A stretch of DNA of 64,000 bases from the NCBI RefSeq assembly GCF_000300235.2, contig NZ_CP004388.1, positions 3,976,001 to 4,040,000 on the forward strand, read 5' to 3'. This stretch comes from Thalassospira xiamenensis M-5 = DSM 17429 (GTDB lineage: Bacteria; Pseudomonadota; Alphaproteobacteria; Rhodospirillales; Thalassospiraceae). The position numbers were made by a program, and so were the translations under genes. The notes under the pieces are model-generated. The model saw only the letters and a program-made list of their open reading frames with translations, made no database searches and had not been told where the DNA came from. Of the stretch, positions 3,526 through 25,603 are shown one piece after another. How positions within the stretch are numbered: the stretch's first letter is position 1; every line of letters begins with the position of its first letter.

Positions 3526-5945
3526 GGCTCCTGATCAGGCGGCGCGCTTTCCCCCACATTACCTTCGCCGGGGTTTTCCGGGGTGTCAGGGTTCTCTGCG
3601 CTATCATTGTCACCAGAAGTCTGATCTTCACCCGTCGTGCCGGATGTATCAGGGTCACCTTGGTCAATGTCTGCTTGACCGGTTTCACCGCCAACTGCTT
3701 CTTGCGAACCGTCTGCACCGGCCTGCGCGCTGTTATTATTGTTGTCCTGCTCACTCTGGGATGGCTGTTCTTCGCCGTCCGTGCTGTCATCCCCCTCACC
3801 CGACGCAGGCGTATCTTCATTCAGAACGTCTTCGCCCGCACCGTCCGAACCGCCAAGACTGTCATCTTCGGCACCGTCACCCGCGTTCGTTTCATTACCC
3901 GCCGCGTCCGAACCGGTTTCAGCCGGGGGTGTTTCCTGATCGGGCGGGGTTTCCCCGTCGATGACCTCATTCGGTAAACCATCGGAAGTCTCACCATCGG
4001 CTTCAGTCGAAGGGCCTTCTTCGGTTTCGGATGTTTCCGAACCGTTTTCTGCCGGGGCCTCTTCGCCTTCCGTTACCGGATCAGCCGAACCTTCCTCGGT
4101 TGTCTCCGCAGTATCGGTGCCATCCGCGCCATTTGAAGTTTCTTCACCAGATGCACCGGCTTCACCCGAACCATCACCCGATGCCGTGTCCTCGACCTGA
4201 TCCGGCGATGTGTCATCAGATGCGTTATCGGATGCGTTATCGGATGCTTCATCCTGTGCACCGGTTTGCGTCTCACCCGTCTGCGGCTGATCCCCGCCGG
4301 TGGTCGATCCGGTTTCAGTTTCCTGCGAAGTGCCACCGGTTTCGTCGGCACCATCCGTCCCGTCACTGCCGGTTTCCGATCCCGTACCGGCATCGGATTC
4401 GGTATCAGACCCCGTTTCGGTGCCATTTTGATCGGTCGGGGTTGTTTCATCGACAGTGGTGTTCGGATCGGTTTCTTCATCCGCTCCGGCATCACCAGTG
4501 GCTTCATCACCCACACCCGAACCTGTGTCGGTTCCTGCATCGGCTCCTGTGTCGCCGGTTTCTTCAGCAATGGTGTCATCACCCGATCCACCAGATGCAG
4601 AATCATCGCCAGCCCCGCCATCGGTTTCCGACTGGGAACTGTCTCCACCGTTACCGGAAGAAGCCTGATCACCGGTTTCGTGATCGGTCGTATCACTGCC
4701 GGACGTATCAGTTTCGCCAGCCACCGGCCCCTCCGACGGGTCCGATGCCTCGTCGGTCGCGTCACCACTATCTGCCCCGGCAGTATCGCCGGTCGTTTCA
4801 CCAGAAGCTTCGGTGTTCGCGTCCGTGCCGGTGTCAGTTGCCGTTTCACCGCCGGATGCATCGCCACTTGCCGTGCCGGAATCCGTGTTGCTGCCGGTTT
4901 CAGATGCGGCATCATCGCCGGTTTCAGTTTCTGTCCGGCTTTCGGTCGCGCCATTTTTCAGATCGACAACAACACCCTGTTCGGAGGTGCTGTAATCAAG
5001 GGTGTTGCGGCCCGCGCCACCGTCAATAGAGTCATTACCGCCACTGGTGCCAAAGGTATCGTCGCCTGCACCACCCAAAAGCGTATTGTTTCCGGCATCC
5101 CCGCGCAGAACATCATCGCCCGATGTCCCGGTCAGATTTTCGATATTGCCAAACGAAACGGTATCGTTGCCTGTCGCACTGCCTGCCGTACCGGTCGAAA
5201 GATCGGCCGTTACGGCATCATCCGAACCGTCAAATGACAGCGTATTGTTGCCAGAACCGCCATCAACAATATCGCCGCCGCCATTGCCCGAAATCACATC
5301 GTCGCCAGACGTGCCCTGGATAACGTCATCACCCGACGTTCCGTCAATGACGGTTGCGTCGCCCGACGACAGATCGCCGGAACTGTCCAGCGCGACATCG
5401 GTCAGTTTCGGGGCATCAACAAGGGTGATTTCGGAAAGCTGGGCAATGCTAATGCCCTTAAGCGTAAGCTGATCGCCGGACGCAAAGGTAATGACGACAT
5501 TGCCCTGACCGTCATCCGAGGCGCGCGAAACCAGATCGGCCGCACTTTCAATGCCGAGATCGTCAAGGGCCAGATAATCTTCGCCAAGGGTGAAATCGGT
5601 GATGGTCGCCTGACCAAATCCGGCCTGCAAAACAAATGTATCGCGGCCTTCGCCACCCGTCATTTCATCCTGGCCCTCGCCCGGTACCAGGATATCGTCA
5701 CCCGCACCACCGATCAGGGTGTTGTCGCCCGCATCCCCGATCAGGATGTCGTTAAACGACGTGCCGATGACGTTTTGAATATTGGTGAAGGCCTGCGTTG
5801 CAGGGGATTGTGAACCTGACGCGCCCGACGAACCGGAATCAGAATTACTCGCAACAGAGCTATCCTCTGCGCGGTCATCCAGCACCTGTTCGATATCAGC
5901 ATCCGTTAAACCGGTGCCATCGTCCTGATTGGCGGGCGAAGCCAA
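1..5945 (-). CDS. Giant RTX calcium-binding secreted protein (5' part, runs off the left edge)
   Basis: One reading frame stays open from a TTG codon at 5945 to the window edge, giving 1,981 residues without the C-terminus. The TTG is preceded by an AGGGAG ribosome site about nine bases upstream; no ATG fits as well. The protein has no N-terminal signal peptide, as expected for type I secretion, whose signal is C-terminal and lies outside the window. It carries many GGxGxDxL-type calcium-binding nonapeptides, interspersed with blocks of the form DTVDYS...VDL.AGTA...GNDTL..IENV.GS. A flank module of about 80 residues (DTFV...G..TITDF...D.L.L...GI...GN.VI...LTL.GI) occurs four times, near nt 5665-5420, 2990-2757, 1335-1090 and 395-145. 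Between the first and second copies lies a long acidic low-complexity linker. The HlyD and ABC exporter genes directly upstream on the same strand are the likely secretion partners. Adhesin, matrix protein and enzyme carrier all remain possible, because no catalytic domain is visible. Confidence 0.9.
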   Translation of the reverse strand, partial: MASPANQDDGTGLTDADIEQVLDDRAEDSSVASNSDSGSSGASGSQSPATQAFTNIQNVIGTSFNDILIGDAGDNTLIGGAGDDILVPGEGQDEMTGGEGRDTFVLQAGFGQATITDFTLGEDYLALDDLGIESAADLVSRASDDGQGNVVITFASGDQLTLKGISIAQLSEITLVDAPKLTDVALDSSGDLSSGDATVIDGTSGDDVIQGTSGDDVISGNGGGDIVDGGSGNNTLSFDGSDDAVTADLSTGTAGSATGNDTVSFGNIENLTGTSGDDVLRGDAGNNTLLGGAGDDTFGTSGGNDSIDGGAGRNTLDYSTSEQGVVVDLKNGATESRTETETGDDAASETGSNTDSGTASGDASGGETATDTGTDANTEASGETTGDTAGADSGDATDEASDPSEGPVAGETDTSGSDTTDHETGDQASSGNGGDSSQSETDGGAGDDSASGGSGDDTIAEETGDTGADAGTDTGSGVGDEATGDAGADEETDPNTTVDETTPTDQNGTETGSDTESDAGTGSETGSDGTDGADETGGTSQETETGSTTGGDQPQTGETQTGAQDEASDNASDNASDDTSPDQVEDTASGDGSGEAGASGEETSNGADGTDTAETTEEGSADPVTEGEEAPAENGSETSETEEGPSTEADGETSDGLPNEVIDGETPPDQETPPAETGSDAAGNETNAGDGAEDDSLGGSDGAGEDVLNEDTPASGEGDDSTDGEEQPSQSEQDNNNNSAQAGADGSQEAVGGETGQADIDQGDPDTSGTTGEDQTSGDNDSAENPDTPENPGEGNVGESAPPDQEPVDDGIIVEGTTGNDVLEGSSDLDTLQGGAGDDTLLGNAGDDILQGGDGNDTLYGGEGADVLQGGKGDDTLYGAAGNDVLQGGDGNDFLQGGAGDDHMQGGDGIDTASYADATGAVFVDLSKSIATGAAGNDVVQMFENLVGSDFDDHLTGDAGDNVLIGGAGVDTLTGGAGDDVLTGGTGEDDFELTVGFGNDTVTDFDVAEDTVDLARLGITDFVTLQSMMSDDGNGNTVIDFGDDGVLTLENVSVDQLSHDNFRGFGRILASDDNDDQQGTDGDDAIYGYDGDDILAGGAGNDVLSGGFGDDTLIAGAGNDTLRGQEGDDTVDYSRATGSVTLDLDAGTASSVDGNDILDRIENAIGSEYDDTLMGDAGTNTLSGGTGDDTLVGRDGDDVLSGGDGNDMFFAEAGNDSYGGGSGIDTVDYSAEINDQFVNLESGVANDTTDGETDRLSGIENIVTGSGNDTVIGNADDNHISTGAGDDTLTGGGGDDTLDGGDGIDTALFNGQGGVEIDLSAGYAKNASGTVSLENIENVTGSGQADIIRGDSGKNIIDAGSSDDTVLGSGGDDTFIGGEGTDTVDYSEFSADMTIDLAAGTASGMGTDEFTGFENVVTGDGNDVISGTSSDNIIAAGAGDDTVLGGFGSDTLSGDDGNDVLSYESVKGSGQSNTGLTFDLDAGTVTSSTFVDTIDGFETIKGSAGNDVMLGGAGDDTLLGDAGDDTLSGGGGNDTLTGGAGGDTFVISANDGQITVTDFDPELDMIDVQGIDGVGLLSDIAGLVGVDEAGNTTISLGDATMTLLGISPDMLKYSNFVGIRSLEGTENADVLIGTSLGDVIDGLAGNDTILGMDGDDTLFGGEGDDTLSGGLGNDLIDGGDGNDTVAYDDAVAGVQVDLAAGNASGGAGNDTLANIDNVTGSDFDDVISGNDANNTLLGGEGADTLSGGAGDDLLDGGAGDDTLIAGAGNDSLLGGAGKDTITYDGIDGGVSVDLDEGSATTESGTSHLNGIENVIGSDGNDTIIGSLISNTLEGGAGDDLIIGGGGNDLLVGGEGADTFVFAPGSGVDTIADFDLSADRLNLSAFGVPTWEALRKMIVSNGNGGTVIDLGQSKITLTGIAPEDLTPDHFVDIKFIGATEADDTIVGSGFGEIIDGLDGNDTIDGAGGDDIIYGGAGDDTLS
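3525..4950 (-). other. Acidic low-complexity linker inside the RTX protein
   Basis: This stretch encodes about 475 residues (roughly residues 332-807) made almost only of Gly, Ser, Thr, Asp, Glu, Ala, Asn, Gln and Pro, in patterns such as TGSDTESDAGTGSETGSD. After its first few residues I find no Lys, Arg, Cys, Trp, Phe, Tyr or Met and a single His. It separates an N-terminal RTX block from the main RTX array. Such a segment should be disordered and strongly negative. Its DNA is correspondingly repetitive, with short GGTGTC and TCGGTT motifs, so it could vary in length between strains. Confidence 0.85.
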
Positions 5946-20916: not shown

Positions 20917-20923
20917 TCACTTA

Positions 20924-20943
20924 TGAGGAGGAACAACTCCTCA
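20924..20943 (+). promoter_or_regulatory. Hairpin with a decoy Shine-Dalgarno sequence in the bdhA leader
   Basis: TGAGGAG-GAACAA-CTCCTCA forms a perfect 7-bp hairpin, immediately upstream of the real ribosome site (AGGGAG) of the dehydrogenase gene. Its 5' arm itself resembles a Shine-Dalgarno sequence and overlaps an upstream in-frame ATG at 20923. It may stabilise the mRNA or influence start choice. Confidence 0.45.
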
Positions 20944-20961
20944 CCCACAGGGAGAAACATC

Positions 20962-21747
20962 ATGCTGACAGGCAAATGCGCACTTGTTACCGGCTCCACC
21001 AGCGGCATCGGACTTGCGATGGCCAAGGCCCTCGCAGGGGCCGGGGCGGATATCATGCTGAACGGCTTTGGCGACAAGGACGAAATCGAGGCCACCCGCA
21101 AATCGCTTGAAACCGAATTTGGCGTGACCGCGCATTACAATGGCGCGGACCTCTCCAAACCCGATCAGATCGAAGCAATGATGATGGACGCCGCCGCAAA
21201 ATTCGGTGGTGGTGCCGATATCCTGATCAACAATGCCGGCATCCAATACACAGCACTCATCGAAGATTTCCCGCCGGAAAAATGGGATGCGATCATCGCG
21301 ATCAACCTGACTTCGGCCTTCCACACGACGCGCTTTGCCCTGCCGAACATGAAAAAGAAAAACTGGGGCCGGATCATCAATACCGCATCAGCCCACGGTC
21401 TGGTCGCATCGGTGCAAAAGGCCGCCTATGTCGCGGCCAAACACGGCATCATGGGCCTGACCAAGGTAACAGCCCTTGAAACCGCCGAAAGCGGCATCAC
21501 CGCCAATTCAATCTGCCCGGGCTGGGTACGCACCGAACTGGTCGAACGCCAGATCGAAGCCAAGGCCAAGGAAGGCGGCATTTCCATCGAACAGGCCGCA
21601 ACCAATCTGGTCTCGGACAAACACCCGTCCAAACAGTTCGTCACCCCCGAACAGATCGGCCAGACCGCCCTGTTCCTGTGCTCGGACGCCGCATCACAGA
21701 TGACGGGTACGCATATGTCGGTCGATGGTGGCTGGACCGCACAGTAA
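20962..21747 (+). CDS. bdhA: D-3-hydroxybutyrate dehydrogenase (SDR family)
   Basis: This enzyme oxidises 3-hydroxybutyrate to acetoacetate with NAD+, in the use of polyhydroxybutyrate and ketone bodies. The 261-residue protein starts MLTGKCALVTGSTSGIG with the TGxxxGIG cofactor motif, has INNAGIQ, and the catalytic Tyr-x3-Lys in YVAAKHGIMGLTK. It ends in the family-typical DGGWTAQ. The SEMP-like motif of general SDRs is absent, but the length, GIQYTALIEDFPPEKWD and the C-terminus all fit HBDH. The ATG at 20962 follows AGGGAG; an upstream in-frame ATG at 20923 lies in a hairpin and is less likely. The MITE-like element sits directly before the leader. Confidence 0.9.
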   Translation: MLTGKCALVTGSTSGIGLAMAKALAGAGADIMLNGFGDKDEIEATRKSLETEFGVTAHYNGADLSKPDQIEAMMMDAAAKFGGGADILINNAGIQYTALIEDFPPEKWDAIIAINLTSAFHTTRFALPNMKKKNWGRIINTASAHGLVASVQKAAYVAAKHGIMGLTKVTALETAESGITANSICPGWVRTELVERQIEAKAKEGGISIEQAATNLVSDKHPSKQFVTPEQIGQTALFLCSDAASQMTGTHMSVDGGWTAQ

Positions 21748-21754
21748 ATTTTTC

Positions 21755-21800
21755 ATGCGCTACTTTGATACCGTTTGGTGTCAAAGTAGCGCATTTTGCT
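21755..21800 (+). terminator. Long hairpin after bdhA whose loop carries a hip operator
   Basis: Perfect 14-base arms (ATGCGCTACTTTGA at 21755-21768 and its complement at 21781-21794) flank a 12-base loop, followed by TTTGCTT. An A/T-rich run also precedes it. It probably terminates bdhA. The loop and inner arms contain the first copy of the hip operator motif. Confidence 0.65.
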
Positions 21801-21860
21801 TGAATGATACCGAATAGTTACATAACCTTGCCTCAGGCAAGAAAAAAACCGTTCGGTGAC
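21767..21860. promoter_or_regulatory. Upstream hipBA operator array: three motifs at 39-bp intervals
   Basis: A 16-bp motif with consensus GATACCG-NN-CGGTATC occurs at 21767 (GATACCGTTTGGTGTC), 21806 (GATACCGAATAGTTAC) and 21845 (AAAACCGTTCGGTGAC). Start-to-start spacing is exactly 39 bp both times. The second lies between candidate promoter boxes and the third ends three bases before the hipB start. This fits cooperative binding by a HipB-type repressor. Confidence 0.7.
21796..21824 (+). promoter_or_regulatory. Candidate hipBA promoter
   Basis: TTGCTT at 21796-21801 and TACATA at 21819-21824 are separated by 17 bases, the optimal sigma-70 spacing. The middle operator copy occupies the spacer, so repressor binding should exclude polymerase. 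Confidence 0.5.
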
Positions 21861-21863
21861 ATC

Positions 21864-22130
21864 ATGATCATTCGAAACATTGACGATATTCGGGCGGCCG
21901 CGCGTAGCTTACGCAAGCAGCGCGGCCTTACCCAAAGCCAGACCGCGGCCCTTATCGGCTACAGCCGAAAATGGCTATCGTCATTCGAGCGGGGCAGCAG
22001 CACCCCACCCATTGACATGATCATTCGCCTGTTCGTTTTACTGGGCAGTCCACTATCGCTGACCGATCTTCAGGCCACCACAACACCAAACGATGCTTCC
22101 GAAATCATCGACATTGACGAGGGGCTTTAA
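21864..22130 (+). CDS. hipB: HipB-type antitoxin / transcriptional repressor
   Basis: An 88-residue XRE-family helix-turn-helix protein: IRAAARSLRKQRGLTQSQTAALIGYSRKWLSSFERGSSTPP is a complete HTH domain at about residues 8-48. HipB antitoxins neutralise HipA and repress the operon. I start at the ATG at 21864 (MIIRNIDDIR); an in-frame codon 60 bases upstream would place the start within the operator array. The stop overlaps the hipA start (TAATG), so translation is coupled. Operator motifs upstream overlap the promoter and ribosome-site region, which supports autoregulation. Confidence 0.88.
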   Translation: MIIRNIDDIRAAARSLRKQRGLTQSQTAALIGYSRKWLSSFERGSSTPPIDMIIRLFVLLGSPLSLTDLQATTTPNDASEIIDIDEGL

Positions 22131-23440
22131 TGGCACAGGAAGCCTCTGTTCGATTGCACGGTATCGAAATCGGCACACTTGGCACCGACGATAAGGGTGG
22201 CCTGCGCTTTCGCTATAGCCCCGATCACATCCAACGATCTGCCACTGCTCAAACCGTCACCCCCCAACTGTCCCTTCGCCTGCCGGTGCCGCCCCAAGCG
22301 GTTGAAAATCACTGGTTTGATGATGCTGAATGCGGGCCTTTCTTTGCCGGGCTGTTGCCGGACAACAAATTGACCCGCCGAAAACTTGCTCTTGTTCTAA
22401 GCAAAGATCACGACATCGCCGCAGATGACGAATTTGCAATGCTATTTGCCCTTGGCAAGGATTGTGCGGGGGCCGTATCCATCGCCCCGGTCGGTACTGC
22501 TGAAACCCCCGAAGATACAACCCATCCGGAATATCGCATTCTCGACGAAGCAGAACTTGCCAGGCACATCCGCGACTTGCCCGCACGTCCCCTATTCGTT
22601 GATGCGCAAGGCGAAGTCCGCATTTCGCTGGCAGGCGTGCATGACAAGGCCGTTGTTATTCGAACCGGCGAAAAGATTGCCCTGCCGCATGGCAACACAC
22701 CAAGTTCCCACATCCTCAAGACCGATATTCAGGGCCTTCCGGAATCGATCCGCGTCGAACATTATTGCCTTGAAATCGCCCGTGAAATCGGGCTTCCCTG
22801 CCCCCGGTCACACATTTTGCAGGCAGAAGATCAGATTTTCATGCTTGTCGCACGATACGACCGGACATTGCGCGAAAGATCCGGCCAACGATATCTGACC
22901 CGCCTGCATCAGGAAGATTTCTGTCAGGCGCTCGGATATTTTCCGCACCAGAAATACGAGCGTGACGGCGGCCCAAACTGGAAAAAAATGTTTGCCGCGC
23001 TGGATTTCAGCCTCGATCCTGCCCGCGATAAACTGCTGCTGCTACGATATGCGATTTTCCAATATCTTGTCGGCAATCCTGATGCGCATGCCAAAAATTA
23101 CAGCCTGATCTGGCAGGCTGGCGGTGTGCGCCTCGCCCCGCTTTATGACCTCAATAACGCCGCAGCATTCCGTAATTTTTACAAAGAGCAACGCATTCTC
23201 CTTGCCATGTCCATCGGTGGCGAACGCAACCCGAAACTGCTTGGCCGCGAACATTGGGAATCTTTTGCATCCGATATCAATATCAGCCCGAAACTGGTGA
23301 TCGACGAACTTGCAACACTCGCCAGCCTGACCGAAAAAGCAGCAACCAAACTGCGCCAAGCCACGCGCGGAACAATTGCGGATACAAGCCTGCTTGATCT
23401 CGCCTTGGAAGACATTAAATCGCGCTGCCAGAACCATTAA
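22130..23440 (+). CDS. hipA: HipA-type serine/threonine kinase toxin
   Basis: HipA toxins phosphorylate glutamyl-tRNA synthetase and induce growth arrest and persistence. The 436-residue protein matches the family in length (E. coli HipA has 440) and in landmarks: the N-terminal FFAGLLPDN segment, the phospho-loop region ISLAGVHDKAVV, the catalytic loop GNPDAHAKNYSL and the metal-binding APLYDLNNA. All key kinase residues appear present, so the toxin should be active. The protein begins with an N-subdomain and is not a split HipS/HipT form. It ends three bases before a second operator array, in the space shared with the convergent LysR gene. Confidence 0.9.
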   Translation: MAQEASVRLHGIEIGTLGTDDKGGLRFRYSPDHIQRSATAQTVTPQLSLRLPVPPQAVENHWFDDAECGPFFAGLLPDNKLTRRKLALVLSKDHDIAADDEFAMLFALGKDCAGAVSIAPVGTAETPEDTTHPEYRILDEAELARHIRDLPARPLFVDAQGEVRISLAGVHDKAVVIRTGEKIALPHGNTPSSHILKTDIQGLPESIRVEHYCLEIAREIGLPCPRSHILQAEDQIFMLVARYDRTLRERSGQRYLTRLHQEDFCQALGYFPHQKYERDGGPNWKKMFAALDFSLDPARDKLLLLRYAIFQYLVGNPDAHAKNYSLIWQAGGVRLAPLYDLNNAAAFRNFYKEQRILLAMSIGGERNPKLLGREHWESFASDINISPKLVIDELATLASLTEKAATKLRQATRGTIADTSLLDLALEDIKSRCQNH

Positions 23441-23442
23441 GC

Positions 23443-23497
23443 GATACCGAACGGTATCATTTCCTCGATTTCAAGACGAATGATACCGTTCGGTAAC
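23443..23497. promoter_or_regulatory. Downstream hip operator pair, also 39 bp apart, between convergent genes
   Basis: Two more copies of the same motif lie at 23443 (GATACCGAACGGTATC, 7-bp arms perfect) and 23482 (GATACCGTTCGGTAAC), again exactly 39 bp apart. They fill the 61-bp space between the hipA stop and the convergent LysR stop, where no promoter for either gene is expected. The last copy shares an extended CAAAGT tail with the first upstream copy. Confidence 0.65.
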
Positions 23498-23501
23498 AAA
23501 G

Positions 23502-25603
<2,102 letters not shown>

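Follow-up and report, generated by a model that had tools for sequence, protein, structure and literature searches.

A probable second operator array downstream of hipBA in Thalassospira, possibly bridging to the promoter

The hipBA module of Thalassospira xiamenensis M-5 is bracketed by five copies of a 16-bp palindrome, three on the promoter side (O1–O3) and two just past the end of hipA (O4 and O5). The module lies in a 64,000-nt stretch of the genome, referred to here as the window. We propose that the downstream pair serves HipBA as a second operator array, specific to this clade and dispensable, and that it bridges to the promoter; comparison of related loci leads us to give this reading an even chance. 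DNA looping between the two arrays, judged from their anatomy, is plausible and is the leading reading. The initial annotation had placed the motif starts at 21767, 21806, 21845, 23443 and 23482, and all five are exact, with within-cluster intervals of 39, 39 and 39 bp. It had also put three copies around the hipB promoter and start and two in a 61-bp space between converging gene ends. Both descriptions hold: O2 lies in the spacer between the −35 and −10 boxes, O3 at the hipB start, and the space runs from 23441 to 23501 (Table 1).

Table 1. Predicted features around hipBA, in window coordinates
Feature	Position	Strand	Basis
3-hydroxybutyrate dehydrogenase (SDR), upstream flank	20923..21747	+	TIGR01963 E 7e-105, above cut-off
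18-bp hairpin around O1, then TTTTGCTT	21755..21794	+	terminator scan; RNA fold z −7.65
Operator O1	21767..21782	.	sequence; aligned in relatives
−35 box TTGAAT, hipB promoter	21800..21805	+	sequence; TTGAAT in 6/6 hipBA relatives
Operator O2, inside 17-bp promoter spacer	21806..21821	.	sequence and relatives
−10 box TAACCT	21823..21828	+	TATGAT in G011, TATACT in G018, TATAGT in G014
Operator O3, ends 3 bp 5' of hipB ATG	21845..21860	.	sequence and relatives
hipB, 88-aa XRE-type antitoxin and repressor	21864..22130	+	HTH_31, HTH_3; start set by relatives
hipA, kinase toxin	22130..23440	+	HipA_C 1.3e-47; Couple_hipA 3.3e-16
Operator O4, perfect palindrome, 2 bp past hipA stop	23443..23458	.	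sequence
Operator O5, 4 bp from lysR stop codon	23482..23497	.	sequence
LysR-family regulator gene, converging on hipA	23502..24377	−	family match; found in 29/29 genus genomes

HipA exceeds the gathering scores of both PF07804 and PF13657, the N-terminal coupling domain being present. Its best match among solved E. coli HipA structures is at 8.7e-42, and D318, H320, N323 and D340 are common to the two proteins. The hipB stop overlaps the hipA start at 22130, placing an HTH antitoxin gene directly 5' of hipA. A HipA kinase and an overlapping upstream HTH antitoxin gene are thus both present, and HipA and HipB are the predicted toxin and antitoxin of a type II hipBA module. The match of the hipB product to the NCBIfam Y4mF/HipB model is below the curated cut-off. 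We take the ATG at 21864, conserved in relatives, as the hipB start rather than the ORF-finder ATG at 21804. An orthologue of hipBA is found in 6 of the 29 genus genomes at 63–100% identity, the remaining HipA matches being at most 46%; Thalassospira xianhensis and T. lucentensis have nearly the same hipBA (HipA 96–97%).

Measured against a pattern with 14 fixed bases, GATACCGNNCGGTATC, O4 has no mismatch, O5 one, O1 two, and O2 and O3 four each. A window-wide scan allowing up to three mismatches returned five matches, three of them operators, where chance alone would give 2.46. In the whole 4.77-Mb, two-contig genome, GATACCGNNCGGTNNC is matched without a mismatch at O4 and O5 and nowhere else. 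The window's own triplet scores 21 in the de novo array finder, under the cut-off of 23 (controls were 60 mononucleotide shuffles per locus), and for this reason O2 and O3 rest on relatives; the triplets of three diverged relatives (L014, L015 and L016) pass de novo, whole or in part. Promoter palindromes with family-typical spacing are present, in the window by way of the relatives. The palindromes are very likely operators of HipB, a prediction made from sequence because they co-occur with hipBA, have promoter geometry and a hipBA-like array spacing, and because no further exact copy occurs in the genome.

Symmetric ACCGNNCGGT-like cores are frequent regulator sites. This counts towards another regulator, for example of the TetR type, owning the palindromes, with hipBA one target among others, but we consider that highly improbable. 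Every further match in the genome has a mismatch, and matches number 25 per strand (palindromes counted on both strands) against 9 and 16 for a reversed control pattern. Other hipBA families, moreover, have the same type of array with different operator sequences. Two copies of ACCGNNCGGT set 38–40 bp apart, start to start, occur in 5 of the 29 genus genomes. Such a double is at the hipBA locus in G000, G007 and G008; G028 and G011 escape the strict pattern there. A second ACCGNNCGGT double, at 38 bp, is common to G007, G008, G019 and G028 (L158, L159, L155 and L157).

The promoter triplet is kept in all six orthologous hipBA loci at 38–39 bp (39/39 in G000, G028 and G007; 39/38 in G011; 38/38 in G018 and G014). 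In each of these genomes TTGAAT directly precedes O2 and the −10 box starts one base after it, O2 fills the 17-bp spacer, and O3 ends 3 bp before a conserved hipB ATG. We take this triplet as ordinary autoregulation. The hairpin around O1, with its T-rich tail, is a probable terminator of the SDR gene, and is among four terminator-like sites in the scan, where 2.5 are expected by chance. By eye, the O1 hairpin of G007 (L013) resembles an inverted form of window 21755–21794, as if the palindrome had been flipped.

The downstream pair is present in four of the six hipBA genomes (G000, G028, G007 and G011), spaced at exactly 39 bp in all four. The pair is missing from G014 and G018, which carry hipBA at this locus too, with other genes after hipA. 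The only diverged genome with the pair is G011 (HipA 63% identical), where O4 lies 12 bp from hipA, versus 2 bp in the window. A hand count of G000 against G011 gives 23 of 32 bases identical in the two operators and 10 of 23 in the spacer. By that locus's own operators O4 of G011 is good, at 17.8 bits, and O5 is weak, with four mismatches and 7.5 bits, a score that the best chance sites of several other loci match or exceed; O5 also reaches 15.5 bits, with a matrix that included G011 O5 itself. It stands at the expected position with 10 of 14 consensus bases, a chance that we reckon at about 3 in 10,000 for one given position and equal base frequencies.

In the window the O4–O5 RNA folds strongly (+ strand z −6.51, − strand z −5.54), as does its counterpart in G008 (z −5.75), which raises the possibility that the two sites form an 18-bp hairpin ending or protecting the hipBA transcript. 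We find this very unlikely. Two copies of one palindrome automatically fold together, the hairpin has no U tract, and G011 keeps the sites and spacing without it (z −1.05, with 34 of 200 shuffles folding as well). The pair in this one diverged genome therefore appears to favor protein–DNA binding over an RNA element.

The initial annotation had seen no obvious promoter for a repressor to block at the pair. A scan of 21600–23700 agrees, with no promoter-like site on either strand where 1.3 are expected, but the same scan missed the hipB promoter too. We also rejected a promoter at the pair itself, as by eye none of the four genomes has a −35/−10 arrangement there like that of O2, and the scan returned nothing. 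HipBA at O4–O5 might instead stop RNA polymerase at the converging gene ends with no need of a loop, so that hipA is shielded from antisense transcription out of lysR and lysR from that out of hipA. The tight fit of O4 and O5 against the two gene ends (2 and 4 bp) would suit such a block, as would the terminator scan, which places none of its four terminator-like sites between hipA and lysR. However, it leaves two sites at the exact promoter spacing unexplained; nor do G014 and G018 have the pair, although they carry inserted genes at that position. We judge it unlikely.

Array spacing was surveyed at hipBA loci chosen by similarity to the window HipA, related genomes included. Arrays were returned in 65 of 93 HipA-similar loci, the 28 under the cut-off including the window (L001) and its close copies L012 and L013. 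Outside this set stand four weak HipA matches (L002, L003, L038 and L039) and two duplicates (L040 and L041); plasmid records with a HipA match numbered 118, and six were taken into the locus set. Viral contigs gave arrays in 40 of 69 loci (35 being non-repeats within the set), with 19 too short upstream and 10 under the cut-off. Interval limits of 24–45 bp miss a class at 49–50 bp, and the survey was run with wider limits. Counting as distinct those arrays with distinct operator sets, 98 arrays yield 189 intervals, of which 91 are 26–28 bp, 7 are 38–39 bp and 85 are 47–51 bp (examples are L091, L017–L025, L027, L028 and L074). Four others, of 53–54 bp, would fit two 27-bp intervals with the site between them missed, and two are 68 and 80 bp; one 29-bp interval (L187) vanished on merging with an identical operator set. 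Steps of about 11 bp separate the three classes, which hold across hipBA families whose operator sequences differ; their best-fitting period of 11–12 bp is longer than the 10.5-bp helical turn. The 39-bp phasing does recur around other hipBA loci, but it makes up only these 7 of 189 intervals, and five of the seven come from orthologues of the window module (G011, G018 and G014); a Rhizobium plasmid and E. coli supply the remaining two.

Sites past hipA were scored by each locus's own operators over up to 600 bp. In the 65 + 40 array-bearing loci none came within 6 bits of the weakest promoter operator except in L014 (G011), a score comparison without a p-value in which some loci, L103, L104, L220 and L224 among them, had less than 600 bp. 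With shuffles, over up to 500 bp downstream in 44 loci, a site scoring above every shuffle was confined to L001, L012, L013 and L014. Every other surveyed array lacks a downstream operator as strong as those of its promoter. Because no other surveyed module has one, the downstream array is not needed for autoregulation. The titles and abstract openings searched mention neither operators downstream of hipA nor spacing classes, although other papers may remark on spacing.

The hipBA locus of E. coli K-12 resembles that of the window in its hipB–hipA order, its palindromic operators upstream and one 39-bp interval. It differs in operator sequence and in having all four operators (TATCCN8GGATA, at intervals of 28, 39 and 28 bp) upstream. 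E. coli HipB is reported to bind its operators cooperatively, with the operator bent (PMC3376134). In MG1655 a fifth perfect TATCCN8GGATA lies 783 bp past hipA, in the fimbrial usher gene remnant ydeT, and in E. coli AMSHJX01 (L230), where the usher gene is intact, that hip-like operator lies within it at a distance of about 4 kb from hipA, with other rearrangements there. We rejected it as a parallel; it lies inside the usher gene, 4–5 such matches are expected per genome, and it is probably due to chance. For hipBA1 and hipBA2 of Caulobacter crescentus, a series of inverted repeats is reported in the promoter, with intervals that the authors consider consistent with the E. coli higher-order complex (PMC7029023). 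Compared by that description, the C. crescentus repeats are in the promoter region, whereas the window also has a downstream pair. The plasmid hipBA of Rhizobium rosettiformans (L147; HipA about 50% identical) has one 39-bp promoter operator pair and no downstream array, its best site there scoring 5.5 bits while the weaker of the promoter operators reaches 19.1. A locus from another alphaproteobacterial genus (L090), also with HipA about 50% identical, has by eye a 40/39 promoter spacing, below the automatic cut-off, and no downstream array in the genus-matrix scan.

The interval between the dehydrogenase and LysR genes was readable in 26 of the 29 genus genomes; G028 was read separately, and G002 and G006 are outside. 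Five of the 26 carry hipBA, G028 being the sixth, three have operators without hipBA, and 18 have no operator pair (lowest p 0.085). The operators without hipBA were reached by 0 of 200 shuffles in G008 and G010 and gave p 0.02 in G020. The scan matrix was built from the six hipBA genomes only, and these three remnants are therefore independent finds. G010 (L082) and G020 (L088) have three promoter operators just past the dehydrogenase gene. Those of G010 score 18.8, 16.6 and 13.0 bits and are followed by what, by eye, resembles the first codons of hipB; in G020 O1 and the third operator have decayed. Because two of the three G010 operators stay good without hipBA, operator persistence alone is no proof of use.

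G008, a close relative, has an O1/O4 hybrid and O5, 39 bp apart (L086, about 4417–4472). Sequence from the left of O1 is joined to sequence from the right of O4, and the breakpoint falls in 11 bp that the two have in common. This scar is apparently a deletion of hipBA through the 11-bp repeat, 1,676 bp in window terms, and in this one relative operators appear to have served as deletion endpoints. We infer loss rather than not-yet-gain because G010 and G020 hold remnants and hipBA occurs in each of the two LysR-tree clades. The pair could be an old copy of the promoter array, made by duplication or recombination and now mainly a repeat for module deletion. Consistent with this are the hybrid and its breakpoint, the survival of promoter operators only in G010 and G020, the weak O5 of G011 and the exchange of small cassettes at the locus. 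However, G011 has kept both the exact 39-bp spacing and a good O4 though its hipA has diverged to 63%, and a hand count gives only about 9 of 23 identical bases between the spacers of the upstream and downstream arrays, excluding a recent copy. We hold this account to be quite unlikely.

In the LysR tree, clade A comprises G000, G007 and G028 with G008 and G019, and clade B comprises G011, G014 and G018 with G010 and G020; the hipBA label needs three changes among nine labelled rows, the 20 unlabelled rows not being counted. Within clade A, dN/dS of hipA is 0.10–0.14, indicating purifying selection, and dS is 0.11–0.16 for hipA, 0.08–0.24 for hipB and 0.14–0.26 for the flanks. As hipBA dS is similar to or below that of the flanks, recent transfer is argued against. 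The suggestion in the initial annotation that the arrays are the ends of a transferred cassette is not supported on this count, nor by G014 and G018, two of the six genomes, whose hipBA occupies this very locus in the absence of O4–O5, so that the two end arrays do not always occur together. Between clades pS is 0.68–0.71 for hipA versus 0.47–0.59 for the flanks, and between G011 and G018 it is 0.60 versus 0.41–0.44, the hipBA divergence being higher but near saturation in both comparisons; hipBA may have been gained separately by clades A and B.

Clustered operators flank a transcribed region for lambda CI at OL/OR and for the Lac and Gal repressors, where looping has been proven by experiment. 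The window resembles these loops in operator layout, but is known from its anatomy alone. In the bridging model that we prefer, all five palindromes would be bound by the module's own HipB, as HipB dimers and HipB2–HipA2 complexes. O1–O3 would form the autorepression array, blocking the promoter spacer at O2 and the hipB start at O3, and O4–O5 a further array with matching geometry at the operon end. HipBA complexes on the two arrays would touch and hold the 1.6-kb operon in a closed loop; with more repressor concentrated locally, basal toxin expression would fall and fluctuate less. At 39 bp, neighboring complexes would sit near the rotational register of the 27–28 and 49–50 bp hipBA arrays. 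A broader scheme, joining a helical-turn rule (about 27, 38.5 and 49.5 bp), a two-end loop and a deletion route leaving a solo two-operator scar, is tentative and in our view rather doubtful.

If the pair is used, this would be a toxin–antitoxin operon closed by its own repressor, with a layer of control that promoter-only models miss and that is relevant to the rarity of toxin escape. The three spacing classes extend the pattern beyond the window locus and offer a simple geometric rule with which to predict HipB operators and test models of HipBA on DNA. The solo scar in G008 points to a route by which such a module can be lost, and if the repeat reading is true an addiction module would carry a built-in deletion route.

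The dehydrogenase–LysR interval is a hotspot that also holds other toxin–antitoxin-like, pentapeptide-like, lipoprotein-like and small genes, named by eye. In L083, L084, L082 and L088 another antitoxin-like gene stands beside hipBA or replaces it and brings a TATCATATGATAA palindrome of its own; judged by eye, the gene probably belongs to a RES-type toxin–antitoxin pair.
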